33,019 nt of DNA from Lachnospiraceae bacterium (GTDB taxonomy: Bacteria; Bacillota; Clostridia; Lachnospirales; Lachnospiraceae): the NCBI GenBank assembly GCA_017482485.1, contig JAFUMV010000055.1, positions 1 through 33,019 of the forward strand, written 5' to 3'. Positions 16-26,123 of the stretch are shown one piece after another (position 1 is the stretch's first letter; the number at the start of each line of letters is the position of its first letter). The notes below the pieces were generated by a model. That model made no database searches, was not told where the DNA came from, and saw only the letters and a list, made by a program, of their open reading frames with translations. Position numbers and translations under genes: made by a program.

Positions 16-144
16 TGCGCGTTTTACGCGCACTTCGCGTCGAGCGCGGTCGCGTAAGCGACATATTTCGCCGCGCGCGAGTACGCATCCCCGCGGAGCG
101 GCTTTTTTATGCCATAGGAAGTCCGGAGGACTTTCCTATGGCAT
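16..144 (+). repeat. Compound structured intergenic element, copy 1
   Basis: Seen directly: a hairpin TGCGCG/CGCGCA at 16-32; a helix GCGCG at 44-48 with CGCGC at 72-76 that encloses an inner hairpin GTCGC-GTAA-GCGAC at 49-62; then a small terminator-like stem CCGC/GCGG at 91-101 followed by C and six T (103-108); then a long palindrome with arms 109-124 and 128-144 (ATGCCATAGGAA... ) with one bulged base. The same order of parts recurs at 25975-26123, and the segment 81-120 aligns closely with 26061-26100. The T-run after the 91-101 stem suggests that an RNA read on plus could end there. The element lies directly downstream of the serA terminator. I cannot name the family; it could be a non-coding RNA, a repeated palindromic element or a bidirectional terminator module. 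Confidence 0.7.
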
Positions 145-152
145 AAATAGAA

Positions 153-196
153 AGACGGTGCAGAATCTGATTATGAAATCAAATTCTGCACCGTCT
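153..196 (-). terminator. Rho-independent terminator of serC-serA
   Basis: Arms 153-172 and 177-196 pair over 20 positions with one mismatch, around a 4-nt loop. Read on minus the stem begins two bases after the serA stop codon and is followed by TTTCTATTTAT, which is U-rich. This ends the serine operon and abuts the structured element at 16-144. Confidence 0.85.
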
Positions 197-198
197 AT

Positions 199-1362
199 TT
201 ATTTTACTACTCTTACTCTGAATACACCGTCAATGGTCTTCAACTGATTGATGATGCTTTCACTCACTGTGGATTCCAGATCCAGCATGGTGATAGCAAC
301 TTCTCCTTTGGATTTATTCATCATGTTTGCAATGTTTAAGTTGCTCCAGCCCATCACAGAAGTGAATTTTGCGATCATGTTTGCGATGTTCTTATGGAAG
401 ATCATCACACGGCTTGCGGAAGTACAGATGCCCATATCACAGTCGGGATAGTACACACTGTGAGAAATATTGCCGTTTTCCAGATAATCTTTTAATTCCT
501 TTACTGCCATCACTGCACAGTTTTCTTCGGATTCCTCAGTGGAAGCTCCCAGATGAGGAATGACAATGCAGTGCTCCTGACCTGCAGTTACAGGGTTCGG
601 GAAATCAGAAACATATCTTCTGATCTTTCCGGCCGCAATTCCATCCAGCACTGCTGCTTCATCCACAAGAAGATCTCTTGCAAAGTTTAACAGGATTACG
701 CCCTCTTTCATGCGTGCGATTGCATCTGCATTGATCATGCCCTTTGTGGTATCCATTAAAGGCACATGCACAGTAATAAAGTCACACTGATCATAAATAT
801 CATTAACATCAAACACATGCTTTACATCGCGGCTTAAGTTCCATGCAGCATCTACAGAAACATAGGGATCATAGCCATATACTTCCATGCCCAGATGCTT
901 CGCAACATTGGCAACCTTAACGCCGATGGCACCCAGGCCGATGATACCCAGCTTCTTGCCCATCACTTCTGTGCCGGCAAATTTCTTCTTTTCCTTCTCA
1001 GCAGCCTTTGCAACATTAGGATCTTCTTTATTTTCTTTCACCCAGTTGATGCCGTCCACAACATCACGGCTTGCCAGCAACATGCCTGCGATAACCAGCT
1101 CTTTTACACCATTTGCATTGGCACCGGGCGTGTTGAATACAACAATACCTTTCTGTGCACATTTGTCCAGCGGAATGTTGTTGACTCCGGCACCTGCGCG
1201 GGCTACTGCCAGCAGGTTATCCGGCAGTTCCATTTCATGCATGGAAGCACTTCTTACTAAAATGCCGTCAGCAACTCCGATATCATCTGCTTTTTCATAT
1301 TCTTTTGTAAAATTATCCAGACCGATCTTGGCAATCGGATTCAGGCATAAATAACGGTACAT
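199..1362 (-). CDS. serA: D-3-phosphoglycerate dehydrogenase
   Basis: Catalyses NAD-dependent oxidation of 3-phosphoglycerate to 3-phosphohydroxypyruvate, the first step of serine synthesis, in the cytoplasm. The 387-residue protein has the D-2-hydroxyacid dehydrogenase fold with the Rossmann motif GLGAIG at 142-147, the active-site Arg at about 229 (NFARD), the catalytic His at about 270 (PHLGAST), and a C-terminal ACT domain from about 316 that probably senses serine. The open frame extends five codons further to a TTG at 1377, but a GAGGAG ribosome binding site sits just before the ATG at 1362, so that start is chosen. Oddity: where the family usually has the DVFxxEP motif with the catalytic Glu, this protein reads SDFPNP, so the usual Glu is absent. 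It lies 38 nt after serC, and a terminator follows the stop at once. Confidence 0.93.
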   Translation of the reverse strand: MYRYLCLNPIAKIGLDNFTKEYEKADDIGVADGILVRSASMHEMELPDNLLAVARAGAGVNNIPLDKCAQKGIVVFNTPGANANGVKELVIAGMLLASRDVVDGINWVKENKEDPNVAKAAEKEKKKFAGTEVMGKKLGIIGLGAIGVKVANVAKHLGMEVYGYDPYVSVDAAWNLSRDVKHVFDVNDIYDQCDFITVHVPLMDTTKGMINADAIARMKEGVILLNFARDLLVDEAAVLDGIAAGKIRRYVSDFPNPVTAGQEHCIVIPHLGASTEESEENCAVMAVKELKDYLENGNISHSVYYPDCDMGICTSASRVMIFHKNIANMIAKFTSVMGWSNLNIANMMNKSKGEVAITMLDLESTVSESIINQLKTIDGVFRVRVVK

Positions 1363-1400
1363 AACTTTACTCCTCAATTTTTACAATTCATTTCCAGATC

Positions 1401-2486
1401 TTACTGGCAATTCTCAGCTTCGAATTTCTTCATGAACTCAACCAGCTTCTCCACGCCTTCGATAGGCATTGCGTTGTAAATGCTTGCACGCATACCGCCT
1501 ACGCTGCGGTGGCCTTTCAGATTCTCAAAGCCTGCTGCTTTTGCTTCTTTTACAAATTTGGCATCCAGATCTGCATCACCGGTCACAAAAGGTACATTCA
1601 TCAAAGAACGATCTTCTTTTCTGACAGTTCCCTTAAACAGCTTGCTCTCATCCAGGAAATCATAGAGAATTTTGGCTTTCTTTTCATTATATTCTTTCAT
1701 TGCAGCAAGACCGCCCCTGGCTTTGAGCCATTTGAACACCTTGCCGCAGATATAAATACCGTATGCCGGAGGGGTATTGTACAGAGACTTGGCATCTGCA
1801 TGAATTTTGTAACGCAGCATGGTAGGTGTTCCGGGAAGGACGTCCTCTGTGATCAGGTCCTCTCTGATAATGACGATTACAACGCCCGCAGGACCCACAT
1901 TCTTCTGCACACCGCCATAAATTACGCCGTACTTTGTCACATCCACAGGTTCGGATAAAAAGCAGGAGGATACGTCAGAAACCAAAATCTTTCCCTTTGT
2001 GTTGGGCAGAGTCTTATATTTTGTACCATAAATGGTGTTATTTTCACAGATATAAACATAGTCCGCATCTTCGGAAATGGGAAGATCAGAACAGTCCGGA
2101 ATATAGGAAAATGTCTTATCCTCAGAAGAAGCAATGGCGTTGGCCTTACCATACATGCTGGCTTCCTTCCAGGCTTTCTTCGCCCACTGACCGGTGATGA
2201 TGTAGTCGGCTACGCCGTTCTTCATCAGGTTCATGGGAATCATGGCAAACTGCTGGCTTGCACCGCCCTGTAAGAATAAAACCTTATAATTATCAGGAAT
2301 GTTCATCAGTTCTCTGAGATCAGCCTCTGCCTCATTGATGATTGTCTCATACATCTTGGAACGATGGCTCATCTCCATAACGGACATGCCGCATCCCTTA
2401 TAATCCAGCATTTCTTCTGCTGCTTCTTTTAAAACTTCTTCCGGTAATACTGCCGGGCCTGCGGAAAAATTATACACTCTGGACAT
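1401..2486 (-). CDS. serC: Phosphoserine aminotransferase
   Basis: PLP-dependent conversion of 3-phosphohydroxypyruvate plus glutamate to O-phosphoserine and 2-oxoglutarate; it is the second step of serine synthesis and can also serve in pyridoxal phosphate synthesis. The 361-residue length fits the family. The N-terminus YNFSAGPAVLP is diagnostic, FLQGGASQQF is at 71-80, and the PLP-binding lysine is K195 in GGVQKNVGPAG. The start is supported by GAGGAGG five to six bases upstream. It is the first gene of the serC-serA operon, with a sigma-A type promoter about 100 nt upstream. No serB (phosphoserine phosphatase) is in the window. Confidence 0.95.
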   Translation of the reverse strand: MSRVYNFSAGPAVLPEEVLKEAAEEMLDYKGCGMSVMEMSHRSKMYETIINEAEADLRELMNIPDNYKVLFLQGGASQQFAMIPMNLMKNGVADYIITGQWAKKAWKEASMYGKANAIASSEDKTFSYIPDCSDLPISEDADYVYICENNTIYGTKYKTLPNTKGKILVSDVSSCFLSEPVDVTKYGVIYGGVQKNVGPAGVVIVIIREDLITEDVLPGTPTMLRYKIHADAKSLYNTPPAYGIYICGKVFKWLKARGGLAAMKEYNEKKAKILYDFLDESKLFKGTVRKEDRSLMNVPFVTGDADLDAKFVKEAKAAGFENLKGHRSVGGMRASIYNAMPIEGVEKLVEFMKKFEAENCQ

Positions 2487-2581
2487 TTTCTCTCCTCCTC
2501 AACCTGTATGCCAGGTATGCATCAGTTTATTCTTTGATGCCTCTGCAATCGACTTTTGTCGATATACAGTCGTTTCGGTCT

Positions 2582-2610
2582 ATTTTAAACTTTATTTTTG
2601 CTTTAGTCAA
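2582..2610 (-). promoter_or_regulatory. Promoter of serC-serA
   Basis: On minus, -35 TTGACT (2605-2610) and -10 TAAAAT (2582-2587) are separated by 17 nt. The transcript would have a leader of about 90 nt containing small hairpins such as TCGAC-AAAA-GTCGA and ACCTG-GCATA-CAGGT, ending in the serC ribosome binding site. No T-box sequence or known riboswitch motif was recognised in it. Confidence 0.7.
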
Positions 2611-2673
2611 CTGCTATAATAAAGTTTTTCAACATAATTGTAAGGGTTCGTTACTGTTCCTAACAAGCAGCTA

Positions 2674-2698
2674 GGTCTGCGCATTTACTGCGCAGACC
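2674..2698 (-). other. Perfect stem-loop after ilvB
   Basis: GGTCTGCGCA (2674-2683), loop TTTAC, TGCGCAGACC (2689-2698), a perfect 10-bp stem 46 nt beyond the ilvB stop. On minus it is not followed by a T-run (the next bases are TAGCTGCTTG), so it is not a canonical terminator. It may be a 3'-end stabilising hairpin or a weak or factor-dependent terminator for leuB-ilvD-ilvB. Confidence 0.55.
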
Positions 2699-2744
2699 GT
2701 AAAAAACATGCTGAAAGTACACATCCGGACACAAATTGTTTCAT

Positions 2745-4421
2745 TTATCTGTTGGCCAGATCGTCTCCATCGAACACTTCACTGATAGGCGCACCGGCAG
2801 GAACCATCGGGAATACTTTATCATCCTTTGGAATCACGCACTCGATCAGCACAGGCTTTTTCAAGGCAATCGCTTTTTCAATCGCAGGCGCAACCTCCTC
2901 TTTTGTTGTTACGCGGATGGCGGCACAGCCAAGTCCTTCCGCAACCTTACAGAAATCAACCGCATCTTCCAAAACGGTCTGGGAATATCGTTTGTCATAG
3001 AACAATGTCTGCCACTGGCGAACCATACCCAACACATGGTTGTTGATAACCACCTGAATGATCGGGATGTTGTAGCGACTTGCAGTTGCCATTTCGTTCA
3101 TATTCATGCGGAAGCAGCCATCTCCGGCGATATTGATACAGATTTTTTCCGGTCTGCCCATCTTCGCGCCGATGCATGCGCCAAGCCCGTATCCCATTGT
3201 TCCGAGACCGCCGGATGACAGGAATGTGCGGGGCTGTGTATAATGGAAATACTGTGACGCCCACATCTGATGCTGACCTACATCAGTGGTAATGACAGCC
3301 TCACCCTTTGTCACGCGGTCAATCTCTTCCATCACATAAGGGCAGCTTAACTGACTGTCATCGTATTTGAGCGGATATTTTTCTTTCAGCTCTATAATGT
3401 GGGCTGCCCATTCGGGATTGCTCTTCTGTTCCATCTTGGCAATCAGTTCTGACAAAACGACTTTCAAATCGCCCACCAGAGCCACGTCTGCCCTGATATT
3501 CTTGTTGATTTCCGCATTGTCAATATCAACGTGAATGACCTTTGCATTCTTTGCAAATTTGGAGGCATTGCCTGTTACACGGTCAGAGAAACGTGCTCCC
3601 AATGCAATCACCAGATCACTTTCGCTCAGTCCAAGGTTGGATGCTTTTGTTCCATGCATACCGATCATGCCGGTATAAAGCGCGTCATAACCATCATACA
3701 CACCTTTTCCCATCAGCGTATCACAAACAGGAGCGTTTAACTTCTTTGCAAAAGCTCTCACCTCTTCTGAAGCGCCGGAAGCCACCGCGCCGCCTCCAAC
3801 ATAGATGAAAGGTTTTCTGGCATTGGCAATCAGCTCCAGTGCTGCATCGATATCTTTGTCCGTGTATTTGTTGATTCTTTCCATCGCTGCAGGAGCCATG
3901 GGCGTAAACTCACACTTATTGGCCGTTACATCCTTTGTTACGTCCACCAGCACCGGTCCGGGACGGCCGGATTTTGCAATCTTGAACGCTTTGCGAAGTG
4001 TTTCTGCCAGAATGTTTACATCTTTTACGATATAACCATGCTTGGTAATGGGCATGGTCACACCTGCAATGTCCACCTCCTGGAAGGAGTCCTTTCCAAG
4101 CAGCGGCAGATTTACATTTGCAGTGATTGCCACCATGGGCACGCTGTCCATGTAAGCGGTTGCAATACCGGTTACCAGATTCGTTGCGCCCGGACCGCTG
4201 GTTGCCATACACACACCAACCTTGCCGGTTGCTCTTGCATAGCCGTCAGCGGCATGTGCCGCACCCTGCTCATGAGAAGTCAGTACATGAAAAATTTCAT
4301 CGCTGTGTTTGTACAGCGCATCGTATACATTTAAAATCGTTCCGCCCGGATAACCAAAAACCGTGTCCACGCCCTGTTCTTTTAAACATTCGATGATGAT
4401 TTCCGCACCTGTTAATAACAT
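2745..4421 (-). CDS. ilvB: Acetolactate synthase, large (catalytic) subunit
   Basis: ThDP-dependent condensation of two pyruvates to acetolactate, or pyruvate plus 2-ketobutyrate to acetohydroxybutyrate, committing carbon to valine, leucine and isoleucine. In 558 residues it shows the cofactor-activating Glu51 (TSHEQGAAHAADG), the central FAD/ThDP domain, and the ThDP-Mg motif GDG at 433-435 ending in NN at 460-461. VRQWQTLFYDKRYS after it is typical of anabolic IlvB rather than catabolic AlsS. The start is an ATG after a G-rich ribosome binding site (GGGGGAATATACAT). It is the last gene of leuB-ilvD-ilvB, 99 nt after ilvD. No ilvN regulatory subunit is adjacent, so feedback control must come from an unlinked subunit or be absent. 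Confidence 0.95.
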   Translation of the reverse strand: MLLTGAEIIIECLKEQGVDTVFGYPGGTILNVYDALYKHSDEIFHVLTSHEQGAAHAADGYARATGKVGVCMATSGPGATNLVTGIATAYMDSVPMVAITANVNLPLLGKDSFQEVDIAGVTMPITKHGYIVKDVNILAETLRKAFKIAKSGRPGPVLVDVTKDVTANKCEFTPMAPAAMERINKYTDKDIDAALELIANARKPFIYVGGGAVASGASEEVRAFAKKLNAPVCDTLMGKGVYDGYDALYTGMIGMHGTKASNLGLSESDLVIALGARFSDRVTGNASKFAKNAKVIHVDIDNAEINKNIRADVALVGDLKVVLSELIAKMEQKSNPEWAAHIIELKEKYPLKYDDSQLSCPYVMEEIDRVTKGEAVITTDVGQHQMWASQYFHYTQPRTFLSSGGLGTMGYGLGACIGAKMGRPEKICINIAGDGCFRMNMNEMATASRYNIPIIQVVINNHVLGMVRQWQTLFYDKRYSQTVLEDAVDFCKVAEGLGCAAIRVTTKEEVAPAIEKAIALKKPVLIECVIPKDDKVFPMVPAGAPISEVFDGDDLANR

Positions 4422-4449
4422 ATGTATATTCCCCCGATCGCTTTTTAAT

Positions 4450-4483
4450 GTTCCTTCTCAATTCGCCATGCGAACCAAGGAAC
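4450..4483 (-). other. ilvD-ilvB intercistronic hairpin
   Basis: GTTCCTT (4450-4456) pairs with AAGGAAC (4477-4483), with an inner TTCG/CGAA helix. It lies in the 99-nt gap between ilvD and ilvB. No T-run follows on minus, so a role in mRNA processing or stability is more likely than termination. Confidence 0.4.
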
Positions 4484-4520
4484 AGCAATAGTTGCCCGCC
4501 TTACGGCATTTGCAACCTTT

Positions 4521-6191
4521 TTATTTTTTTATCTCCAAGATAGCACCTCTGTTGCCGCTGGTTACCATTTCACGATACCTTGCCAGATATCCGGTGGTCA
4601 CCTTGGGTTCTCTGGGCTGCCATTTTGCTTTTCTCGCTGCCATTTCTTCATCAGAAATCTTAACATTCAGCTTGTTTTCCGGAATATTGATGCTGATGAT
4701 ATCTCCCTCTTCTACCAGTGCGATAGGACCGCCCACTGCCGCTTCCGGAGAAACATGGCCGATGGATGCGCCTCTGGATGCGCCGGAGAAACGTCCGTCC
4801 GTGATAAGCGCTACGGAAGAACCAAGTCCCATTCCCGCGATTGCAGAGGTGGGATTGAGCATTTCACGCATGCCCGGACCGCCTTTGGGGCCTTCGTAAC
4901 GAATGACCACAACATCGCCTGCAACGATCTTGCCGCCTTTGATGGCCGCAATAGCATCTTCCTCACAATCAAATACTCTTGCGGGTCCTTCATGTACCAT
5001 CATTTCGGGCACTACTGCGGAACGCTTTACAACACCGGTGTCAGGTGCCAGGTTACCCTTTAAAACTGCAATGCCGCCAGTCTGAGAGTAAGGATTTTCC
5101 ACAGGACGGATAACTTCGGGATTCTTATTGACACAGCCTGCGATATTTTCGCCCACCGTCTTACCGGTTACGGTGATCAGATCGGTGTATAACAGGCCTT
5201 TCTTATTCAGTTCATTCATAACCGCATAAACGCCGCCGGCCTCATTTAAGTCTTCCATATAGGTGGGACCTGCGGGTGCCAGATGGCACAGATTAGGGGT
5301 CTTTGCAGACAGTTCATTGGCAATTTCCATGTTCAGTTCCACGCCGGCTTCGTGCGCGATTGCGGGCAGATGCAGCATGGAGTTTGTGGAACAACCCAGT
5401 GCCATATCGATGGTCAGCGCATTCATAAATGCCTTTTCTGTCATAATGTCACGGGGACGGATATCTTTTTCCACCAGTTCCATGATTTTCATGCCGGCAT
5501 GTTTTGCCAGACGGATTCTTTCGGAATATACTGCCGGAATCGTTCCATTGCCCTTTAAGCCCATGCCCAGCGCCTCAGTCAGACAGTTCATGGAGTTTGC
5601 GGTGTACATGCCGGAACAGGAACCGCAGGTAGGACATACTTTCTCTTCAAATTCAGCCAGATCATCCAGCGTCATCGTACCTGCTGCCACGGAACCAACC
5701 GCTTCAAACATGGAAGAAAGGCTTCTCTTTTCTCCCTTTACGCGTCCGGCCAGCATGGGGCCGCCGGATACAAAAATCGTAGGAATGTTCACGCGGGCTG
5801 CTGCCATTAAAAGTCCCGGAACGTTCTTGTCACAGTTGGGAATGCAAACCAGTCCGTCAAACTGATGTGCCTGCGCCATACATTCTGTACTGTCACAAAT
5901 CAGATCACGGGTCACCAGGGAATATTTCATTCCCACATGGCCCATTGCGATGCCGTCACAGACAGCAATTGCAGGGAATACAACCGGAGTGCCGCCTGCC
6001 ATGGCAACTCCCAGCTTTACGGCCTCCGTGATTTTATCCAGATTCATATGACCGGGCACGATCTCATTATAAGAGCTGACAATACCGATCATCGGTCTGC
6101 GGCGCTCTTCTTCGGTGTACCCCAGCGCATTAAAAAGACTTCTGTGAGGCGCCTGCTGAACGCCCTGTGTTACATTGTCACTTTTTTTCAT
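4521..6191 (-). CDS. ilvD: Dihydroxy-acid dehydratase
   Basis: Dehydrates 2,3-dihydroxy-isovalerate and 2,3-dihydroxy-3-methylvalerate to the keto acids of valine/leucine and isoleucine, using an Fe-S cluster and Mg. The 556-residue protein has the conserved cluster cysteines C78 (AVCDG), C120 (PNCDKNVPG) and C192 ([17 protein letters not shown]), and the C-terminal [19 protein letters not shown] region that carries the catalytic serine. The open frame continues to 6242, but the GGAGG ribosome binding site lies just upstream of the internal ATG at 6191 (MKKSDN), which also matches the usual family N-terminus. It sits 54 nt after leuB and 99 nt before ilvB in one direction, so the three are probably one operon. 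Confidence 0.95.
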
Positions 6192-6245
6192 GTTATCCTC
6201 CATTCCAAAGCAGTAAAAAACTGCTCTGCCTTTTTCAACCATTCC

Positions 6246-7328
6246 TTAAATCCGCTCTGCCAGCAGATCGCCCATCTGCCTGCATCCGACTTTGACACAG
6301 CCTTCCGACATAATGTCTCCGGTTCTGTAGCCGTCTTTTAAAACCTGTTTAACAGCATTTTCAATGGCATCCGCCTCTTTGTCAAGATCAAAAGTATAAC
6401 GAAGCATCATCGCTGCGCTGAGCACTGTCGCGATGGGATTAGCGATGTCCTTGCCGGCAATGTCGGGCGCGCTGCCGTGGCTGGGCTCATACAGACCAAA
6501 TTTTGTATCATTGAGACTTGCAGAAGACAGCATTCCGATGGAACCGGTCACCATGCTCGCTTCATCGGATAAAATATCCCCGAACATATTCTCAGTCAGA
6601 ATTACATCAAACTGTGCGGGATCTTTGACAAGCTGCATCGCACAGTTGTCCACCAGCATGTGTTCCAGCTCTACATCGGGATAATCCTTTGCCACTTCAT
6701 TGACCACTGCTCTCCACAGACGGGAGGAATCCAGCACATTTGCCTTGTCCACACTGGTCACTTTATGTCTGCGCTTTCTTGCAATCTCAAAGCCCTTGAT
6801 CGCAATGCGGCGGATCTCATTTTCATCATAGGTAAGCGTATCGATCGCCTTACGCACGCCGTTTTCTTCCACAGTCTTTCTCTCTCCGAAATAAAGACCG
6901 CCGGTCAGCTCACGCATAATCAGCATATCAAAACCCGCTTTGCTGATCTCTTCCTTTAACGGGCAGGCTGCGGCGAGCTCTTCATACAGATAAGCGGGAC
7001 GCAGGTTGGCAAACAGGTTCAAAGCCTTACGAATCTTTAACAGCCCCGCCTCCGGACGATTCTGAGGCGGCAGTTTGTACCAGGGAGACGTGTTGGTATC
7101 TCCGCCGATGGAGCCCATCAGCACCGCATCGGCAGCCTTGGCCTGGGCAATCGCTTCATCGGTCAGCGGAACGCCATGCACATCAATGGATGCGCCTCCC
7201 ATCAGAATATCCTTAAAATTCATCACATGTCCATATTTTGAAGCAACTTTATTCAGCACTTTTTTAGCTTCGGCCACAATTTCAGGGCCAATTCCGTCAC
7301 CGGGAATGCATACAATATTTAATTCCAT
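6246..7328 (-). CDS. leuB: 3-isopropylmalate dehydrogenase
   Basis: NAD-dependent oxidative decarboxylation of 3-isopropylmalate to 2-oxoisocaproate, the third step of leucine synthesis. The 360-residue protein starts [15 protein letters not shown] and contains the substrate arginines in [22 protein letters not shown] (about 91-112) and [10 protein letters not shown] (about 139-148), then the metal-binding DNCAMQLVK and GDILSDEAS segments and the adenosine site [12 protein letters not shown], all typical of LeuB. The start at 7328 is chosen because GGAGG lies 8-9 nt upstream; an in-frame start at 7352 would precede that site. It is the first gene of leuB-ilvD-ilvB. Neither leuA nor leuCD is in the window. 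Confidence 0.95.
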
Positions 7329-7410
7329 ACTAAAACCTCCAAATTTATTCACCGCAGGGCGTTCGCAATGCGGGGACCGCTGCGATTTGCTCTGTAAATT
7401 GCACCGTATC

Positions 7411-7431
7411 GGATAATTGCTGCAATTATCC
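7411..7431 (-). promoter_or_regulatory. Palindromic operator-like site at the leuB transcription start
   Basis: Arms GGATAATTGC (7411-7420) and GCAATTATCC (7422-7431) form a perfect 10-bp inverted repeat around one base. On minus it begins three to four bases after the -10 box and so covers the predicted +1. It could be a repressor operator or, once transcribed, a 5'-end hairpin. No T-box or leader peptide rich in Leu/Ile/Val codons was seen, so this is the best candidate for pathway control. Confidence 0.55.
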
Positions 7432-7434
7432 TCT

Positions 7435-7463: not shown

Positions 7464-7474
7464 CTGTTAGTAAC

Positions 7475-9040: not shown

Positions 9041-9087
9041 AATTTTTCCTCCGTTTGTTATTTTGAAAAAATCATAACCTGTGAAAA

Positions 9088-17834: not shown

Positions 17835-18755
17835 TTATTTCACCCATTCCTGTGCTTCTTTATCGTTTGCCAGCACGTAATGCTCCGGTGCCAGTTCCTT
17901 CCAGGAAGGCGGACTATTTTTATAATCATGCATGTCAGGATCGTAAACCAAAAGCTTTTTGCTGCGCTCGTGTCTGGGATCCGGCATGGGAATTGCAGAT
18001 AACAGTGCTCTTGTATAGGGATGAATCGGATTGGTCACCAGTTCTTCCGTCTCGGCCATCTCCACAATTTCTCCCTTGTGAATAACTGCGATTCTGTCGG
18101 TGATAAAACGCATTACAGACAGATCGTGCGCGATGAACAGATAAGTGATCTGATGCTTCTTCTGCATGTCTGACAGCAGATTCAACACCTGTGCACGGAC
18201 GGATACATCCAGCGCAGAAATCGGTTCATCCGCAATAATGAATTCCGGATTCATGATCAATGCCCGCGCAATACCGATACGCTGCCTTTGTCCGCCGGAA
18301 AACTCATGCGGGAAACGGCTTGCAAATTCAGGCAGAAGTCCCACTTCACTCAGTGCATGATCCACTCTTTTTAATCTTTCTTCTTCGGAAAGATTCTTTT
18401 CAAAGTTCATCAGGCCTTCGCTGATGATATAGTCCACCTTTGCACGCTCATTTAAGGATGCCTGGGGATCCTGAAAAATCATCTGGATTTCCCGGATCAC
18501 TTTATGGTCCAGCTCCTTTGAGATCTTTCCGTTGATCTTCTCCCCTTTATAAAGGATCTCACCGCCGGCGGTGGGGATGATTCGCATAATCGCACGACCG
18601 ATGGTTGTTTTGCCGGAACCGGATTCGCCTACCAGTCCGAAAGTTTCACCCTTATATATCTTAAAATTGACCTTTTTAACCGCATCGTAACGCTTTTTCT
18701 TTTCGCCGAAAGACACATCCAGGTCCTTTACTTCCAATAATACTTCTCTTTCCAT
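17835..18755 (-). CDS. Peptide ABC transporter ATPase (OppF/DppF type)
   Basis: 306 residues. Walker A GESGSGKT at 43-50, Q-loop FQDPQASL, signature FSGGQRQR around 152-159, Walker B FIIADEP at 172-178, switch His in IAHDLSV. The C-terminal oligopeptide-transporter extension ([19 protein letters not shown]...) is present. The usual cysteine cluster of that extension (CP...C...C) is missing; the segment ends [23 protein letters not shown]. Start and upstream stop overlap by one base (TGATG), which indicates translational coupling, and GGAGG precedes the start. It pairs with the ATPase at 18755-19804 to energise peptide import. Confidence 0.92.
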
Positions 18756-19804
18756 CAGATCAGGCCTCCGTTTCTGATTTTTTCAACCACTTCAGGCGGA
18801 TCCACCTTGGGCGCTCTGGGATCCAGAAGCCAGGTTCTTGCCTTGTGTGTGGGCGATACTTCAAAATAAGGCGGTCTTTCGATAAAATCGATTTTCAGAG
18901 CTTTCGGGTTACGGGGTGCAAAAGCATCTCCCTTCACCTCAGTAAACAGGTTGGGCGGCGTACCGGGAATTGAAAACAGGTTCTCACCCTTTACACCGAT
19001 CTGAGGCAGGGAAGAAAGCAAAGCCCAGGTATAAGGATGTCTGGGATCATAGAAAATATCCTCAGAGGTTCCGATTTCCACAATATCTCCCGCATACATA
19101 ACAGCAACTCTGTCCGCAATGTTTGCCACAACACCCAGGTCATGGGTGATGAGGATAACGGATAATTTATATTTATGACGCAGCTCCTTAATCAAATCCA
19201 GTATCTGTGCCTGAATGGTCACATCCAGAGCGGTGGTGGGCTCATCACAGATCAGAATCTGAGGATTACATGCAATTGCAATCGCAATTACCACACGCTG
19301 TCTCATACCGCCGGAAAATTCATGCGGATACTGCTCAAAACGTCTTTCAGGATCCTGTATGCCTACATCCTTTAAGTATTCCAGCGTTTTTGCCTTCGCC
19401 TCGGCCCGGTTTAAGTGCTGGTGCAGCAGCACCGCTTCCATGATCTGTGCCCCGATCGTTTTCAAAGGATTCAAACTCGTCATGGGATCCTGCATGATCA
19501 TTGCAATTTCATGCCCCCGGATTTTATACCACTCTTTTTCTTTTTTTAAAGAGGTCAGTTCCACCGGCACGCCATCGTCACAGCCATAGTACATGATCGT
19601 GCCATCGGTCACCTTTCCGTTCTGCTCCAAAAGTCCCATAAAGGATTTGGTAAATACGGATTTTCCGCTGCCTGACTCTCCTACGATAGCCAGAATCTCA
19701 CCTTTGTACAGATCCAGTGAAATACCGCGGATGGCATTTAATTTTTTTCCGCGCAGGTCAAACTTGATTTCCAGATTCTCAACTGTCAGCATTTTTTCAG
19801 CCAT
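18755..19804 (-). CDS. Peptide ABC transporter ATPase (OppD/DppD type)
   Basis: 349 residues. Walker A GESGSGKS at 42-49, [11 protein letters not shown]-loop, signature FSGGMRQR at about 163-170, Walker B ILICDEP at 183-189, [10 protein letters not shown] switch region, then the oligopeptide-transporter C-terminal domain ([13 protein letters not shown]... SIPGTPPNL). In the place where many family members have APRCPYAMDIC and a final Cys, this protein reads [11 protein letters not shown] and ARTW, so the Fe-S-type cysteines are lost. The start at 19804 (MAEKML) follows GGGGGGAG; the frame to 19819 would begin inside that site. It lies 18 nt after the permease gene. Confidence 0.92.
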
Positions 19805-19822
19805 TTTTACTCCCCCCATTTC

Positions 19823-20836
19823 TCAGACATGATTCTTCGGATCCGCCGCATCGGAGAAGGCATTACCAATAATATAAAATGAAATGGTCACAAAGGAAAG
19901 GATCAGGGTCGGGTATACCAGCTGATAACGCAGCGCAGGGCTGGTGATCAGCGCACGACCTTCATTGATCAGATTTCCAAGGCTGGGGGTATCAACGGGA
20001 AGTCCCAGTCCAATGTAAGTGATAAACACCTCGTTGCCGATCGCCGCAGGAATGGTCAGTGCCATACGCAGCATGATAACGGAAACCAGATAAGGAAGCA
20101 GGTTCTTGATCATGATTTTTGAGGTAGGAGTTCCCAGACAGCGGCTGGCAACATTATAATCCCGGTCTCTGATAATCAGGATCTGATTTCGGATAAAGCG
20201 GGCCATCTGAATCCATCCGGTCAGACACATGGCAAAGATCAGCGTCTTTACGCTGGGCTTTAAAATGTAGGAAATCAGGATCAGTATGATCGTGTTGGGG
20301 ATATTATCAATAATGTTATAAATTTCTGTCAGGATGAAATCCAGCTTTCTGACATAGCCCCAGAGCACACCGATGGTGATGCCGATCAGCGCCTCTGCCA
20401 GCGCAACGGAAAGACCGATAAACAGAGAAGTTCTGGTTCCTGACCAGATACGTGCCCACAGATCCTGTCCGATGGAGTTGGTACCCAGAATGAACTGATC
20501 CCCGGGCGGAATATTACGGTACTGCATGCCGTTTTCATCATTAATGATCATATTGGGATCATACTGATTGGGCAGATAGGGCTGAATAAAAGTGAACAAA
20601 AGCAACAGTCCAAGCAGAAATAAAAGTACCACAGCCATTTTATTTTTCAGAAAGGCCTGCAGCGTGCTTCTCCAGTAGGAGTAATTGCTGTAGCCTGTTT
20701 TTTCCACTTCTTTTTCATTGAATTCGGCAAAGGAAAACAGTTCTTCTTCGGACAGATTCGTCTGCTCTTTCACTGCTTCTTCCATGCTTTTCATCAATTC
20801 TGCCTCTTTGGCATGTCGGTAGGAAAATTGCTTCAT
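19823..20836 (-). CDS. Peptide ABC transporter permease (OppC/DppC type)
   Basis: 337 residues: a long acidic cytoplasmic N-terminus (about 1-55), first membrane helix around 68-88 (MAVVLLFLLGLLLLFTFIQPYLP), an extracytoplasmic loop with the DQFILGTNSIGQDLWARIWSGTRTS motif typical of DppC/OppC, then five more helices with the coupling (EAA) region near RDYNVASRCLGTPTSKIMIKNLLP. The C-terminal GLGLPVDTPSLGNLINEGR segment is also diagnostic. Its ATG overlaps the stop of the preceding permease gene by one base (TAATG), and AAGGTG lies upstream. It forms the membrane channel with the protein at 20836-21777. Confidence 0.92.
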   Translation of the reverse strand: MKQFSYRHAKEAELMKSMEEAVKEQTNLSEEELFSFAEFNEKEVEKTGYSNYSYWRSTLQAFLKNKMAVVLLFLLGLLLLFTFIQPYLPNQYDPNMIINDENGMQYRNIPPGDQFILGTNSIGQDLWARIWSGTRTSLFIGLSVALAEALIGITIGVLWGYVRKLDFILTEIYNIIDNIPNTIILILISYILKPSVKTLIFAMCLTGWIQMARFIRNQILIIRDRDYNVASRCLGTPTSKIMIKNLLPYLVSVIMLRMALTIPAAIGNEVFITYIGLGLPVDTPSLGNLINEGRALITSPALRYQLVYPTLILSFVTISFYIIGNAFSDAADPKNHV

Positions 20837-21777
20837 TATCTGTCACCTTCTTTCTTTCCAAGGCTGATTCTGGGATCCAGAATAACCATCAAAACATCTC
20901 CCAACATCAGGCCCAAAACACCAACGCAGGCATAAAGCAAAACAATTCCCTGGACCATGGTGTTGTCATGCTTTTTGATTACCGTTACCAACAGACCGCC
21001 CATTCCGGGGACACTGTAAAGAGATTCAATATAAATGGAACCGATTACCGTATTTAAAAACGCGGTAGGAATATACTGTGCCAGGGGCACGAAAGCATTG
21101 CGGAAAATATGTTTAAACATAACACCGCCTTCGGATACGCCTTTCGCCTTTGCCAGCTTCACATAGTCCTTATTGCTTTCATCCACCATATAACGGCGCA
21201 GCCACATTCCGTAAAACGCAATGTTATTTAAAGACATGGAAAGTACCGGTAAAATCCAGTATTTGGGATTGTTAATATCAAAAAGCAGTCCCACGTTCAG
21301 AATCTGTGTCCCGTAAAGCTGAATGTACAGGAAATAAACAGCTGCCGGTATCGCCTGTATGCACACGATGAACATGGTTCCCAGCTTATCAAAGAAACGA
21401 TATTTATACCGTGCCATCAACGCGCCCATCGGAATGCCGATCAAGAGGGAAACAATCATGGAAAACACACCCAGCTTGATGGAAACCGGCACCTTGTCCG
21501 CAAGAATTTCCGTTACCGCCACATTTGCGCGATAAATGCGGGATGTGCCCAGATCACCATGAAGCAGATCTTTAAAGAAACGCACGATCTGTACAGGAAG
21601 CGGATCTGTCAGCCCCATTTCTTCCAGACCTACCTGAATCTGCTGAGGGGTCATCTTTTCATAGTTGGGGAAATACCCTTCAATGGGCATCAGACGCAGC
21701 AGGCAGAAAACGATGGTCAGAATAATTACCAGCGTGATCAGCGAACGCCCGATTCGTTTTGCCAGATACTTTAACAT
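20836..21777 (-). CDS. Peptide ABC transporter permease (OppB/DppB type)
   Basis: 313 residues with six predicted membrane helices. The N-terminus MLKYLAKRIGRSLITLVIILTIVFCLLRLMP, the GLTDPLPVQIVRFFKDLLHGDLGTS loop, the EAA-like region KLAKAKGVSEGGVMFKHIFRNAFVPL, and the end SIYIESLYSVPGMGGLLVTVIKKHD...DPRI are all typical of DppB/OppB. GGAG upstream of the ATG supports the start. It is separated from the binding-protein gene by 192 nt that contain two strong hairpins, so it may be expressed at a lower level than that gene. Confidence 0.93.
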   Translation of the reverse strand: MLKYLAKRIGRSLITLVIILTIVFCLLRLMPIEGYFPNYEKMTPQQIQVGLEEMGLTDPLPVQIVRFFKDLLHGDLGTSRIYRANVAVTEILADKVPVSIKLGVFSMIVSLLIGIPMGALMARYKYRFFDKLGTMFIVCIQAIPAAVYFLYIQLYGTQILNVGLLFDINNPKYWILPVLSMSLNNIAFYGMWLRRYMVDESNKDYVKLAKAKGVSEGGVMFKHIFRNAFVPLAQYIPTAFLNTVIGSIYIESLYSVPGMGGLLVTVIKKHDNTMVQGIVLLYACVGVLGLMLGDVLMVILDPRISLGKKEGDR

Positions 21778-21868
21778 GTGAACTACTCCTTCATTTGATT
21801 ATGTATATGCGATCGCGCCACAACACAAAAAGCAATCCTGCTGCTTGTGCTCTGACGTTAAAAACGCA

Positions 21869-21903
21869 CTCGGAAACAGAGGAATTCATCCTCCGTTTCC
21901 GAG
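21869..21903 (-). other. Intercistronic hairpin 1 of the peptide operon (attenuator-like)
   Basis: CTCGGAAAC-GAGGA (21869-21883) pairs with TCCTC-GTTTCCGAG (21889-21903) with one internal mismatch and loop ATTCA. Read on minus the stem is followed by TGCGTTTTTAACG, an imperfect U-tract that could cause partial termination between the binding-protein gene and the permeases. Confidence 0.65.
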
Positions 21904-21914
21904 AACATTTTTAT

Positions 21915-21939
21915 GCTCCTCCCCGGAGCGGGGAGGAGC
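21915..21939 (-). other. Intercistronic hairpin 2 of the peptide operon
   Basis: GCTCCTCCCC (21915-21924), loop GGAGC, GGGGAGGAGC (21930-21939), a perfect GC-rich 10-bp stem 30 nt after the binding-protein stop codon. On minus it is followed by ATAAAAATG, without a U-tract. It probably protects the 3' end of the binding-protein mRNA. Confidence 0.65.
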
Positions 21940-21969
21940 GAAAATGTATGAACTATGCACTTTTGGGGC

Positions 21970-23889
21970 TTATTTTGCTTTGTTAGCCTCGTACTGTTCC
22001 ATGGATACATAAGTATCCTGCAAATGCTGACCTTTGAATCTTAACTTGGATACACCGAAAGGCGCATACTGCGCTTCAAATACATTCAGCTTGGTGGAAA
22101 TATAGGAGCTTACTGTGATGCTGAAAGGAATTACCAGTGCATGGTCCATCAGCACTGCTTCAGCTTCCGCAAATGCTTCATAACGCGCATTTGTATCAAC
22201 AGTGATTTCCTTAGCTGCATCAACCTTATCGAAATATTCCTGAACTGCTGCTGCAGCAGGAGTACCCTCTTCAATTGCCTTTGCAAGGAATGCATATTTG
22301 TAACCAGGATCATATCCGGATTCACCAGCTGCCTGATAGAAAGGATCTGTCCAGGTTTCGGGATCTGCATAGTCAGCGCCCCATCCGCACTTCATGAATG
22401 CGTACTTACCGGAACGACGAACTTCTGTCAGGAAGTTGTCAGTAGGGCCTGCTTCAATGATGATATCAATGAAATCGCTGCCCAGCAGTGCTTCCATCTG
22501 CTGTTCTACTACCTGACATTCCTTATCCCAGTCTGTCGTGCTGGGATTGTAACACATAAGCGCCTTCACGGGGAAGGTAACACCTTCTGCTGTCAGTTCT
22601 TCCACTGCAGCATCCCTGTATTCAATGGCCTTTGCTTCATCAAAGGTATCTCCCTTGTCTGCAAGTGCGCCAACTGTTGTGAAATCAGTGCCATCTGCAT
22701 TGTAAGCAAAATCAAAAGGTGTAACGGTAGCCAGTGTATAATCTTCAGGAGTGGAAGGCTCAAGCACCGCTACTTCCTTCACCTTATCAAGACCATAATA
22801 CAGAGCTTTACGGAAGTTTTCGTTATTTACTGCTTTTCTCCAGTTATCGGGTTCGTAAGCTTCATCGAACTGAGGATCAAAGTTAAAGCAGTAGAAGTAA
22901 GAATAACTGGTAGAAGGACGCTCCCGGCTTACCAGATTCTTTGTTTCTTCATTGCCCTGCCAGTCTTCCAGCAGATCAGCGCTGATGGTTGCATAGTCAA
23001 TTTCACCACGCTTGATCATTTCAGGGCCGATCGTATCTGCTTCTGCGTTGTAAATCTGCTGAACCTCATCGATGAACACATTAGCAACATCATAGTTGGA
23101 AGGATTCTTCTTTAATACACGTTTCTCCTGAGGGGAATACTCAGCCAGATAGTATGCACCGTTGTAGTACATCTTGTCAGCTGCTGTAGCGAATTCCTTG
23201 CCCAGTTCTTCCAGCTGAGGACCATATGCAGGCATGTAAACCACATATACCAGAGAGGAAATGAAGTAAGGCACTTCTTTTGCCAGAGTATAGGTCAGGG
23301 TGTGTTCATCCACAGCCTTTACACCAACTTCTGCAAAGTCAATTTCTTCCCATACATTGCCGTCTTCGTCAGCGCCGCCCTGGTAAACCAGACCATTGTA
23401 GTATTCTTCTGCGTTCGCAATAACGCCGAACAGGTTCTGTACGTTTGCGCTTTCGTACTCAGGGGTCAGCTCATATTTCAGCGCATCCACGAAGTCTTGG
23501 GCTGTCACATCAGCAACTTCTGCGCCGGTGTTGTCAACCCACTTTGCGTCTCTTAACTTGAATGTCCAGGTAAGAGTTGCTTCGTCATAAGTCCACTCGG
23601 TAGCCAGACCTTCCTTCAGCTGTCCGTTGGAATCATACTCAACCAGAGTATCTACGCAGTTTGCACCAATCGTCTGCTCGTTGATGGTAGAGGTTACCAG
23701 ATAGTTCAGAGTGGAAACTTCACTGGAGTAAAGCTCTCTGTAAACAGCAGGTTCGCCGCTTTCAGCGCCTGCGCTTTCGCCTGCTGCAGAACTACCACTG
23801 CCGGATGAAGCGGAACCGCAGCCGGTCAGAGCTGTGGAAACTGCCATAACGACACAGAGCATCATAGCGATCAGTTTCTTGTTTTTCAT
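21970..23889 (-). CDS. Peptide-binding lipoprotein of an ABC transporter (SBP family 5)
   Basis: 639 residues, an OppA/DppA-type extracellular solute-binding protein. The signal peptide and lipobox are clear: MKNKKLIAMMLCVVMAVSTA then LTGC with Cys24 as the lipidation site, followed by a Ser/Gly/Ala/Glu linker to about residue 50. Family landmarks include WTFKLRDAKWVDNTGAEVTAQDFVDALKYEL-like text around 125-155 and FRKALYYGLDK. The length is above the 500-550 usual for OppA. The start at 23889 is set by GGAGGAGAG upstream; the frame to 23997 overlaps the preceding gene. In this setting it probably captures murein-derived peptides, but the specificity is not visible from sequence. A GAAA-loop hairpin (CTAA.CCC/GGG.TTAG) lies in the gap upstream. 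Confidence 0.9.
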   Translation of the reverse strand: MKNKKLIAMMLCVVMAVSTALTGCGSASSGSGSSAAGESAGAESGEPAVYRELYSSEVSTLNYLVTSTINEQTIGANCVDTLVEYDSNGQLKEGLATEWTYDEATLTWTFKLRDAKWVDNTGAEVADVTAQDFVDALKYELTPEYESANVQNLFGVIANAEEYYNGLVYQGGADEDGNVWEEIDFAEVGVKAVDEHTLTYTLAKEVPYFISSLVYVVYMPAYGPQLEELGKEFATAADKMYYNGAYYLAEYSPQEKRVLKKNPSNYDVANVFIDEVQQIYNAEADTIGPEMIKRGEIDYATISADLLEDWQGNEETKNLVSRERPSTSYSYFYCFNFDPQFDEAYEPDNWRKAVNNENFRKALYYGLDKVKEVAVLEPSTPEDYTLATVTPFDFAYNADGTDFTTVGALADKGDTFDEAKAIEYRDAAVEELTAEGVTFPVKALMCYNPSTTDWDKECQVVEQQMEALLGSDFIDIIIEAGPTDNFLTEVRRSGKYAFMKCGWGADYADPETWTDPFYQAAGESGYDPGYKYAFLAKAIEEGTPAAAAVQEYFDKVDAAKEITVDTNARYEAFAEAEAVLMDHALVIPFSITVSSYISTKLNVFEAQYAPFGVSKLRFKGQHLQDTYVSMEQYEANKAK

Positions 23890-23996
23890 AATATCTCTCC
23901 TCCTTAATTCTTTATGGCTAAACCCTTTCGGGATTAGTTTCTTTTTCATATGCTGCCATCCCCCAAAAACATTCCTTCCGGCAGCGGCTGTCCTCA

Positions 23997-25085
23997 TTAC
24001 AGTTTTTCAAATCCCGGAACAGCTGAAACTCCAAGCCCTGCAGAATCCGTCATGATAATTTTGTTTCCCTGATAAAGAGGACCGCCTGTGTAAGGGTCAA
24101 TTTTACAAAGGGACGGACCGTCCAGATCTGCTCTGGTAATTACGCCCTTGGCCGCTGCCAGATGTGCTGCCGCACTGACAGCGATCTTGCTTTCAAGCAT
24201 ACAGCCGATCATGCATTCCACACCATAGCTTTCTGCAATACTGCAGATTTTTAAAGCTTCATAAATGCCTCCGGTTTTCATCAACTTGATATTAATCAGA
24301 TCAGCAGCCCTCTCCTGAATCAGATGGATTGCATCCTGGGGAGAAAACACGCTCTCATCTGCAAGAATCGGTGTTGAAACCTGACTGGTAACAAATTTCA
24401 TGCCTTCAAAATCATGGGCAGATACCGGCTGTTCCACCAGATCCATATCAATGCCCATATCTTCCAGCGTGCGAATGATCCGAACCGCATCCTTTGCTTT
24501 CCAGCCCTGATTTGCATCAATACGAAGCTTAACATCGGGGCCTACGGCCTGACGGATAGCTTTGATACGCTCAATGTCCTTTAAGCTTTCCTTGCCCACT
24601 TTGATCTTTAAAATATCAAAGCCCTGGGCTACAGCCTTTAAGCTGTCTGCAACCATTTCATCAATCTCATTGACACTGATGGTCAGATCGGTTTCCACCT
24701 CTTTTTTGCTGCCGCCCAGCACCTGGTACAGGGGCCTTCCGCAGGATTTGGCAAACAGATCATAAATTGCCATGTCAACAGCAGCCTTGGCGGAAGTATT
24801 TTTTAAAATGCATCCGTGAAGCTTATTCATGATGCCGTCCAGATTCTCAATTTCCATACCGATCAGATTCGGTGCGATGAAATCTTCGATTGCACAGCGG
24901 ATGGAGCCTAATGTATCTCCGGTGATAACCGCGGTGGGAGGTGCCTCACCAAAGCCCTCCTGTCCGTCATCTGTAATAACTCTCACTACAATATCATGTA
25001 CATTCTCCACAGTGCGCAGCGCTGTTTTAAAAGGTGTGACTAACGGAATCTTCACTTCCGCAGTTTCTATTTTTATGATTTTCAT
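23997..25085 (-). CDS. Dipeptide epimerase, L-Ala-D/L-Glu type (enolase superfamily)
   Basis: Interconverts L-Ala-D-Glu and L-Ala-L-Glu so that murein-derived dipeptides can be cleaved by ordinary peptidases. The 362-residue protein has the muconate-lactonizing-like barrel with the acid/base lysines K160 and K162 (LKIKVG) and K267 (INIK), metal ligands D190 (RIDANQGW), E218 (DLVEQP) and D243 (LADES), and the terminal DLDGP motif near 320. R24 in FKTALRTV and the residue numbering closely resemble Bacillus YkfB, which supports L-Ala-D/L-Glu specificity. The start has GAGGCG upstream. It lies 28 nt after serine hydrolase A and 107 nt before the binding-protein gene. A different dipeptide epimerase specificity is possible. 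Confidence 0.88.
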   Translation of the reverse strand: MKIIKIETAEVKIPLVTPFKTALRTVENVHDIVVRVITDDGQEGFGEAPPTAVITGDTLGSIRCAIEDFIAPNLIGMEIENLDGIMNKLHGCILKNTSAKAAVDMAIYDLFAKSCGRPLYQVLGGSKKEVETDLTISVNEIDEMVADSLKAVAQGFDILKIKVGKESLKDIERIKAIRQAVGPDVKLRIDANQGWKAKDAVRIIRTLEDMGIDMDLVEQPVSAHDFEGMKFVTSQVSTPILADESVFSPQDAIHLIQERAADLINIKLMKTGGIYEALKICSIAESYGVECMIGCMLESKIAVSAAAHLAAAKGVITRADLDGPSLCKIDPYTGGPLYQGNKIIMTDSAGLGVSAVPGFEKL

Positions 25086-25113
25086 CTCTGTCGCCTCAAC
25101 AAATAGATAGTTT

Positions 25114-25890
25114 TTATTTATTATTCTCCTGATAAAGCTGCAATGACATTTCAGCCATCACCCGCTCATAAGCCGGAGTATCCGTTTCGTTTCCGCAAAA
25201 ACAAACAATGAAAGGCTGCTTTGCGTAAATAATTCCCACATCGTGAGTGATTTTGCTGTCCTCTCCGGTCTTATGGGCGATTTCCGGTTCCGGATCCAGC
25301 GCATTTAAATAAAATGGAATCTTTCCGTTCACCTGCTGATTTTTCATGATGGAAATCATTTTCTCACTGCTCATGCTGTCAATCAGCGTCCCCTGATACA
25401 TCTGCTCCAGAAGCACTGCCGTCTGTTTTGCGGTTATCTGGTTCTGAATGCCTCTTTTGGACTTTTCTGTATCGTACATCTTGCGGCGAAGCCACACATC
25501 TTCATATCCAAGCTTTCTGATCTCTTCATTGATCTGTTCGATTCCCAGAAGATCAATCAGTATGTTCGTTGCAGTATTGTCACTGAATATAATCATCAGT
25601 GTGATCAAATCCATCACTGTGACTTCAAGCCCCTCATGCATGTAGGCAACCGCGCCGCAGGAGGGAACATAATATTCTTTCTTCATCACAATGATCTGAT
25701 CCGGGTCCAGCGCCCCGGTGCTGATTCTGTAAAAAGCATCCGCCATAATATAAAGCTTGATCACACTTGCTGCGAACATTTTCTCATTTTTCCGGTAGGA
25801 AAGCTCCTGGCCGGTGACAAGATTCTTATAGTAAAAGCTGATGGACCCCGGAAGTTTTTCCAGGTATGTATTCATTTCCTGCTGCGTCAT
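25114..25890 (-). CDS. Class-A beta-lactamase-fold serine hydrolase A (Beta-lactamase2 type)
   Basis: 258 residues with motifs S42-V-I-K45, S103-D-N105 and K207-T-G209. There is no signal peptide, so a cytoplasmic location is expected. The omega-loop Glu (ExxLN) is not recognisable; the region reads RRKMYDTEKSKRGIQNQITAKQ, which resembles other non-resistance members of the family. It is the first gene of the nine-gene cell-wall peptide operon, 28 nt before the epimerase. GGAGG lies upstream of the ATG, with ten bases between; a second ATG at residue 6 is possible. The co-location with epimerase, NlpC/P60 and peptide transporter suggests a peptidase or esterase acting on imported D-amino-acid peptides. 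No convincing promoter was identified in the gap upstream. Confidence 0.82.
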   Translation of the reverse strand: MTQQEMNTYLEKLPGSISFYYKNLVTGQELSYRKNEKMFAASVIKLYIMADAFYRISTGALDPDQIIVMKKEYYVPSCGAVAYMHEGLEVTVMDLITLMIIFSDNTATNILIDLLGIEQINEEIRKLGYEDVWLRRKMYDTEKSKRGIQNQITAKQTAVLLEQMYQGTLIDSMSSEKMISIMKNQQVNGKIPFYLNALDPEPEIAHKTGEDSKITHDVGIIYAKQPFIVCFCGNETDTPAYERVMAEMSLQLYQENNK

Positions 25891-25974
25891 GCGTTTTCCG
25901 CCTCCGATCAGTTAAATTCTGTCAGTAAATATGCATTCCACATACACTTTCCCAGAATCCATTACATTAAAAAC

Positions 25975-26123
25975 AGAATTTCGCTCTGCGAAATTCTTCC
26001 GGCAATCATAGATTGCCTGCGCGGCGGGTCCGCAAAGCGGACATCTTCCATTCCGCCGCAGTGCGATCCCCCGGTGGGGCTTTTTTATACGATAGGAAAC
26101 AAAGTTTCCTATCGTATAAAAAA
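25975..26123 (+). repeat. Compound structured intergenic element, copy 2
   Basis: Parts in order: perfect hairpin AGAATTTCGC-TCT-GCGAAATTCT (25975-25997); hairpin GGCAATC-ATA-GATTGCC (26001-26017); outer helix GCGGCGG (26021-26027) with CCGCCGC (26053-26059) around inner hairpin GTCCGC-AAA-GCGGAC (26028-26042); small stem CCCC/GGGG (26068-26079) then C and six T (26081-26086); and a perfect 20-bp palindrome, arms 26081-26100 and 26104-26123. The organisation and the 26061-26100 sequence match copy 1 at 16-144, with different but still paired stem sequences. It fills most of the 364-nt gap between serine hydrolase A and the lactonase-like gene; no gene was found in that gap. Confidence 0.75.

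Follow-up and report, generated by a model that had tools for sequence, protein, structure and literature searches.

The window analysed here, the whole stretch of 33,019 nucleotides at positions 1 to 33,019 of contig JAFUMV010000055.1 (assembly GCA_017482485.1, from a Lachnospiraceae bacterium), contains two copies of a compound hairpin element. We propose, with a probability of roughly 0.6, that they belong to a family of short, non-autonomous and modular mobile repeats that enter sites made of a hairpin followed by six T residues (hairpin-T6 sites), that do so depending on the replication strand, and that carry terminator-like hairpins at both ends. The element occurs in many copies with a patchy spread, its fold is conserved while its stems are exchanged, its P5 end abuts a hairpin in about two thirds of the copies, some copies are present in one genome and absent from a sister, and its polarity relative to replication is nearly absolute in six genomes. 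If the proposal holds, this would be a repeat family of a large bacterial family of which no description was recognised in the open-access literature that was searched, and it would show clearly that a small DNA element can be placed by a transcription terminator together with the direction of replication. It would also open a direct route to the question of how repeats spread when no mover is visible, and would be relevant to genome assembly because several copies in the genome of the window (the own genome below) are located at contig ends.

Plan of the element and covariation of its stems

The own copies and 92 copies from relatives share one order of parts: an A-run, the hairpin H1, the helix P2 enclosing P3, P4 with a T-run, the palindrome P5 and a second A-run. 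The initial annotation had described two such copies in the window whose helices differ in sequence and still pair, and direct reading agrees with this; the palindromes were confirmed by an inverted-repeat search. The parts of the two copies and the features beside them are as follows.

15-144, plus: copy 1, subfamily A, from H1 to the P5 end (direct reading; 119.3 bits with the covariance model R1, this sequence being one of the 14 used to build it)
16-32, plus: H1 hairpin of copy 1, 16-21 with 27-32 (terminator-like site 34-14 on the minus strand by scan)
44-76, plus: P2 of copy 1, GCGCG (44-48) with CGCGC (72-76) (sequence reading; pairs counted over 44 copies)
49-53 and 58-62, plus: P3 of copy 1, GTCGC with GCGAC, enclosed by P2 (sequence reading; pairs counted over 44 copies)
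80-92, plus: conserved stretch of copy 1, AGTACGCATCCCC (sequence reading)
84-108, plus: P4 hairpin of copy 1, CGC-A-TCC..GGA-GCG (84-90 with 95-100), then a T-run at 103-108 (sequence reading, alignment)
109-144, no strand assigned: P5 palindrome of copy 1 with an ATAGGAA core, 109-124 with 128-144 (inverted-repeat search)
153-196, minus: terminator-like hairpin of 20 pairs beside the right end of copy 1 (simple terminator scan)
199-1377, minus: 2-hydroxyacid dehydrogenase family gene, owner of the 153-196 hairpin (gene and family calls)
25975-26117, plus: copy 2, subfamily C, with an extra hairpin module (direct reading; R1 match at 26001-26117, 40.8 bits)
25975-25997, plus: H1 hairpin of copy 2 (minus-strand terminator-like site by scan; inverted-repeat search)
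26001-26018, plus: optional extra hairpin of copy 2, GGCAATC (26001-26007) with GATTGCC (26012-26018) (sequence reading)
26021-26059, plus: P2 of copy 2, GCGGCGG (26021-26027) with CCGCCGC (26053-26059) (sequence reading)
26028-26033 and 26037-26042, plus: P3 of copy 2, GTCCGC with GCGGAC, enclosed by P2 (sequence reading)
26060-26071, plus: conserved stretch of copy 2, AGTGCGATCCCC (sequence reading)
26069-26086, plus: P4 of copy 2, CCCC (26069-26072) with GGGG (26076-26079), then a T-run at 26081-26086 (sequence reading)
26087-26099 and 26105-26117, no strand assigned: arms of the P5 palindrome of copy 2, 26080-26124 with the flanking T- and A-runs (inverted-repeat search)
26124-26152, minus: hairpin beside copy 2, abutting the A-run (by eye; the simple scan did not call a site)
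26255-27307, minus: lactonase-family gene, owner of the 26124-26152 hairpin (gene and family calls)

Read on the minus strand, H1 of copy 1 and the A-rich stretch to its left form a hairpin followed by a T-run. P4 and its T-run were not called by the terminator scans in the window copies and are terminator-like on the plus strand by eye. The inverted repeat of P5 is perfect across 15 nt in copy 1 (106-120 with 133-147, 100%) and across 21 nt in copy 2. The P2/P3 helix of copy 1 has an asymmetric, pyrimidine-rich loop on its 3' side, which is part of the family plan.

The element is a compound of four to five hairpins with a median size of 127 nt (range 87-175 in 238 copies). Genomes and loci are cited here by our own G and L labels. 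The P5 core is often ATAGGAAA..TTTCCTAT, and H1 occurs as sequence types unrelated to one another (GTGTGCGC.., GAATCCTGC.., GAGTTTCGC.. and GAATGTGC..). The whole of P2 is swapped with pairing kept in L127 (CCCATGTGG/CCACATGGG) and in the G301 copies L372 and L387, and in most of the printed G301 copies P4 is a different hairpin with a T-run, again with pairing kept. Parts are missing in some copies (L041 and L144, for example), and P4 is weak by eye in copies of G004 and G010. Optional extra hairpins return at the same junctions across copies, and extra hairpins or modules were seen in copies of G000, G010, G015, G227 and G268; a module nearly the same as the extra hairpin of copy 2 occurs at a different junction in some subfamily B copies. 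A longer extra module between P2 and P3 is nearly the same in G268 and G227, which belong to two genera (L391, L392, L402 and L403 are examples).

Covariation had been claimed from the two window copies alone, and it exceeds chance in an alignment of 44 copies that lacks the subfamily of copy 2: 25 of 38 pairs are changed on both sides, as against 16.1 +/- 1.8 after shuffling, and 94.5% of the cells are paired, compared with 83.2% in shuffled and at most 54.3% in slid controls. The covariation rests on H1, P3 and P5, since none of the P4 pairs and only one P2 pair is changed on both sides. Strand switching during replication can also produce compensatory changes in long perfect palindromes, so that covariation alone is no proof of a working RNA. 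The outer arms of P5 (columns 111-118 of the alignment A5) are highly variable and still complementary with few intermediates, which would fit palindrome correction during replication. Pairs of the G-U type are scarce and name no RNA strand; the counts of G-U against A-C are 27 and 16 in a symmetric count over more copies (p 0.13) and 63 and 38 in alignment A5, and are not decisive.

Distribution, placement and replication polarity

With copy 1 as the query 51 matches were found in the own genome, and with copy 2 there were 53, palindrome echoes included. Near-duplicates of copy 1 at 98-100% identity lie on other contigs of this genome. The covariance model R1, built from 14 own copies, gave 99 matches at E <= 1 with reverse-strand echoes included, and, on the element strand alone, 47 places at E <= 1e-5. 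Both copies of the initial annotation are therefore real, but its framing as a pair was too small, and the two fall into two (A and C) of at least three sequence subfamilies of the own genome. R1 was positive in 18 of 61 genomes, own included, and in 7 of the 13 of the same genus (g1). A second covariance model, R2, was built from 44 diverse copies and used at E <= 1e-5 with at most eight candidates scored per genome; it was positive in 164 of 397 Lachnospiraceae genomes (own included) and 144 of 334 genera, and the stricter filters of this screen lose weak matches, so its absences are not firm. In a class-wide draw 8 of 391 genomes were positive, seven of them in Lachnospiraceae with the own genome included; G601, the sole positive outside the family, carries the plan and the ATAGGAAA palindrome. 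The covariance check proposed in the initial annotation did not go against it, since further copies exist and the covariation exceeds chance.

A DNA pattern search returned at least 117 stretches. Among the 80 matches listed, the hosts go largely by the names Butyrivibrio or Lachnospiraceae bacterium; Eisenbergiella, Herbinix, [Eubacterium] cellulosolvens, Clostridium fessum, Lachnoclostridium and two 'Clostridiales bacterium' also occur, and the sources of the named records are rumen, faecal and other gut hosts. One copy (L202, SHOH01000078.1) is on a contig of a metagenome-assembled genome labelled Anaerolineaceae, by transfer or mis-binning. The number of copies per genome ranges from 0 to about 50. 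A search of plasmids with one copy and a search of viral contigs with one pattern gave no match; a phage search gave nine unannotated faecal 'Bacteriophage sp.' records of 4-11 kb, which are taken as evidence neither way. The notion of P5 as a separate free-standing unit was rejected: of the 14 exact P5 cores in six single-contig genomes, 12 belong to full-length model matches, one to a partial match and one to none, the exact core being absent from two of the six, G301 and G268.

The copies used for counting were delimited from several sets. A table of 92 rows holds nearly all of 104 matches, after duplicates, reverse-strand P5 echoes and P5-only matches were dropped and L069 1625-1742 was added. 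Further rows came from sets in which 45 of 46 and 76 of 87 were kept (seven were cut at the record end and four weak matches or echoes were dropped), and 30 of the 47 own places were delimited. The 243 delimited rows became 238 copies after the removal of five duplicates.

In these 238 copies the left flank is an A-run followed by plain AT-rich sequence and the right flank is an A-run followed by GC-rich sequence. A hairpin with a score of at least 15 directly follows the right A-run in 148 of the 227 copies with enough flank, compared with 13 after shuffling, 20 at the left end and 7 at a greater distance. Among 185 copies for which a simple open reading frame finder called both neighbours, 153 have the right neighbour gene and 129 the left one on the opposite strand. 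Taken together, the right-side hairpins and the opposite-strand right neighbours place the element mostly behind the terminator of an opposite-strand gene. A minus-strand terminator had been noted beside both window copies; the scan bears this out for copy 1, and for copy 2 the hairpin is seen by eye and was not called by the scan.

A link to replication direction lies outside the initial annotation and was found in the present analysis. In single-contig genomes the strand of the element flips where the GC skew flips, and in six of them the plus strand of the element is on the lagging strand in 95 of 97 copies (G301 48/48, G268 16/16, G227 14/14, G332 11/12, G121 4/5, G358 2/2). The switch in G301 is sharp, between 1.105 and 1.159 Mb and near the skew switch. 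The six genomes were chosen, before the polarity was noticed, from about eleven single-contig genomes positive with R2, and three echoes (one in G227, two in G121) are not part of the count of 97. In G301, G268 and G227 (78 copies, three of them in a switching interval) the strand was assigned from where a copy lies among the sampled skew regions, and for the remaining 19 copies from the skew around the copy. In the sampled regions of G301, G268 and G227 the leading strand holds 528 of 658 genes, 255 of 359 transcription-unit ends and 92 of 120 terminator-like hairpins (two of 40 regions were dropped from the terminator count for low skew). With chance set at the terminator fraction of 0.767, P is 3e-9 for 95 of 97 copies and 6e-9 for the 92 of 94 that remain when the three copies in switching intervals are set aside. 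Gene strand bias is therefore insufficient for the polarity, which far exceeds the ~77% of terminators.

For 201 of the 238 copies, and for 29 of 30 in the own genome, local skew agrees in sign with expectation. It is partly confounded with gene direction; where the right neighbour is on the plus strand the split is 16 to 7 (outside G015). Copies with the unusual sign also adjoin hairpins (15 of 22 outside G015 and 6 of 10 in it). Along the window, each of the seven 5-kb steps has negative skew and the two copies lie on the plus strand, which is the expected sign, and own contigs with more than one copy keep one strand in 7 of 9 cases.

Mobility and competing explanations

A mobile palindromic repeat was among the readings offered by the initial annotation, and it is well supported by the copy number, by presence and absence between sisters, whether through gain or through loss, and by tandem copies. 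G606 carries two copies within a 12.5 kb stretch; both are missing from its sister G243, whose pieces of the stretch are 89-95% identical. Nine letters at site 1 of G243 look like the two element ends (the start like H1, the end like P5). Site 2 is occupied by other sequence in G243 and by a copy in G851; there G814, G647, G857, G813 and G873 have sequence with a hairpin and, by eye, no trace of the element, and in G840 and G243 the first letters resemble H1. Head-to-tail tandem copies occur in L060, L069 and L077. Six of the 238 copies have a right hairpin that is itself H1-like, and in three of these (L060, L069 and L114) a larger part of another copy is visible behind it; tandem copies fit insertion behind an H1 terminator. 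The A-runs at the ends (left 180/231, right 212/231) may derive from a duplicated T-run or belong to the element itself, and three empty alleles look scar-like.

The lagging-strand template is single-stranded at the replication fork. We suggest that the element inserts into this strand, or at the growing 3' end of the leading strand, and that its target would be an exposed terminator hairpin followed by T6. The strand reading 5'-terminator hairpin-T6-element would be the lagging-strand template, and insertion into it would lead to the observed orientation. The inserted element would close on this strand with its own H1 and T6, which would restore termination and offer a fresh target, and this would account for the head-to-tail tandems. 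With H1 and a T-run on one strand and P4 and a T-run on the other, each copy is predicted to be a two-way transcription stop, so that harm to the host would be limited. A tentative and rather doubtful extension is that the element is a counterpart of the short interspersed nuclear elements (SINEs), a protein-free hairpin parasite that uses a terminator-targeting retroelement or other single-strand machinery at the replication fork to enter behind hairpin-T6 stop signals; because it would rebuild the stop signal at its far end, such a parasite could be nearly harmless and chain in tandem.

Several observations weigh against a mobile, strand-dependent repeat of this kind. Since the empty alleles of G243 (at both sites) and G840 start with a few H1-like letters, with a P5-like end as well at site 1 of G243, these differences may reflect loss and not gain, and beyond the A-runs no clean target-site duplication could be made out. 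By the score used, 79 of the 227 copies have no strong adjacent hairpin. G015, which has 54 R1 matches, shows no polarity (15 of 26 sampled copies; L060, L078 and L107-L126), the two copies sampled from G001 are of opposite sign (0/2), and G332 and G121 have one exception each. As for a mover, the Y1 transposase (PF01797) has 0 matches in the own genome, a 90% complete draft, and was rejected in this role; it is present in 5 of 14 control genomes. Reverse transcriptase (RVT_1) shows no association with the element, being found in 10 of the 18 genomes with the element and 18 of the 43 without it, with none at threshold in the element-rich G010, G012 and G020, and none was found in the own draft although a group II intron end is present there. 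This test is weak because drafts lose introns.

The lack of association tells equally against a bacterial SINE-like retroelement, in which the RNA of the element would be inserted at hairpin-T6 sites by the machinery of a terminator-targeting group II intron, and the few G-U pairs give no pointer to RNA either. We regard this explanation as unlikely. Its appeal lies in the bacterial-C (IIC) group II introns, which are described as lying directly behind Rho-independent terminators with a strong lagging-strand bias (PMC8919778), although the naming of strands may differ; the present element is also mostly behind intrinsic-terminator-like sites with a strand bias, G015 being the exception. The orientation would suit priming by a T-run on an A-run, and in the own genome a group II intron end (RF00029, E 1.8e-6, L030 31-107, contig C63) lies against a broken P5 at a contig end. 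That match is beside the copy and not inside it, the window shows no sign of domain V/VI, with no RF00029 match at gathering score, and the element, 175 nt at most, is far too short for a reverse transcriptase. That the element is not a selfish mobile element and is instead a two-way terminator or insulator, selected by the host, spread mainly by recombination and kept at leading-strand gene ends against read-through or replication conflicts, seems distinctly improbable as an account of the family. The suggestion of a transcription-insulating module had some merit in that the anatomy appears to fit: H1 is terminator-like on the minus strand in both window copies by scan, P4 with its T-run looks similar on the plus strand by eye, and the copies are behind existing terminators; selection could also account for the polarity. 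Yet the element is patchy within genus g1 (7 of 13 genomes), identical copies occur in one genome, copies occur in tandem, and most sites already have a terminator.

An unnamed non-coding RNA with its own terminator had also been put forward, and a structured RNA or cis-regulator (an RNA of the plus strand that ends at P4, or a leader upstream of the left gene on the minus strand) is now a very unlikely explanation. The fold is strongly conserved, and in L065, L058 and L076 the copy is by eye just upstream of a minus-strand start codon. Against this, base frequencies in the 40 nt left of the element show no conservation except the A-run, the G-U pairs have no clear strand preference, and no Rfam match reaches threshold. 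The neighbours of ten own copies per side are from different families with no common function evident; on the left, ten of the 30 delimited own copies have ten different families, with no consistent function as for a riboswitch or attenuator leader. Polar motifs in replication or segregation, such as KOPS and Ter sites, offer a further comparison, and the polarity of 95 in 97 copies and the sharp strand switch of G301 near the skew switch would suit a chromosome motif that happens to use terminator sites. Such a motif is highly improbable here, given 0 to about 50 copies per genome, many relatives without a match and G015 without polarity.

Comparison with described repeats

Rfam gave 0 matches at gathering score in the window and only matches below gathering at four other loci, so the check left open by the initial annotation turned up no family at threshold. 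The best Rfam match overlapping a copy, sok (30.4 of 59 bits, E 0.0016, L050 2388-2559), was not accepted. Small interspersed hairpin repeats are a kind of element that is already known. BOX, RUP and SPRITE of Streptococcus pneumoniae are such repeats, BOX being described as modular and SPRITE as terminator-like near gene 3' ends (PMC3049150), and the present element is likewise small, interspersed and hairpin-forming, with interchangeable or optional modules at high copy number as in BOX. It differs in its polarity, since BOX, RUP and SPRITE mirror the coding bias with 60.8-63.3% on the leading strand (PMC3049150) whereas 95 of 97 copies here are on one replication strand. BOX and RUP have terminal inverted repeats (PMC3049150); none runs end to end in the two window copies, which have only local hairpins and P2, and this also sets them apart from miniature inverted-repeat transposable elements. 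The P5 end, unlike BOX, RUP and SPRITE, mostly adjoins a terminator-like hairpin.

The repetitive extragenic palindromic (REP) repeats that go with RAYT (Y1) transposases are similarly palindromic, intergenic and numerous (PMC3733652). The GTAG/CGTC REPs are 20-40 bp in length and are given for other phyla, Firmicutes not being mentioned (PMC3733652). The present element differs as a compound of several hairpins rather than a single short stem, and its own genome is without the Y1 transposase. From BOX, RUP, SPRITE and the REPs together it is set apart by its terminator-abutting end and its strong replication polarity.

No ortholog of the gap at window copy 2 with the same neighbours was found by same-genus synteny, so there is no empty site there. 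At the start of L020 (contig C102) a group II intron end is seen by eye against a broken P5 at a contig end, with no such Rfam match. The minus strand of the window at 25114-25890 carries a gene with a beta-lactamase-like fold (PF13354), which at 99.7 against 200 bits is below the NCBIfam cut-off for the class A enzyme.

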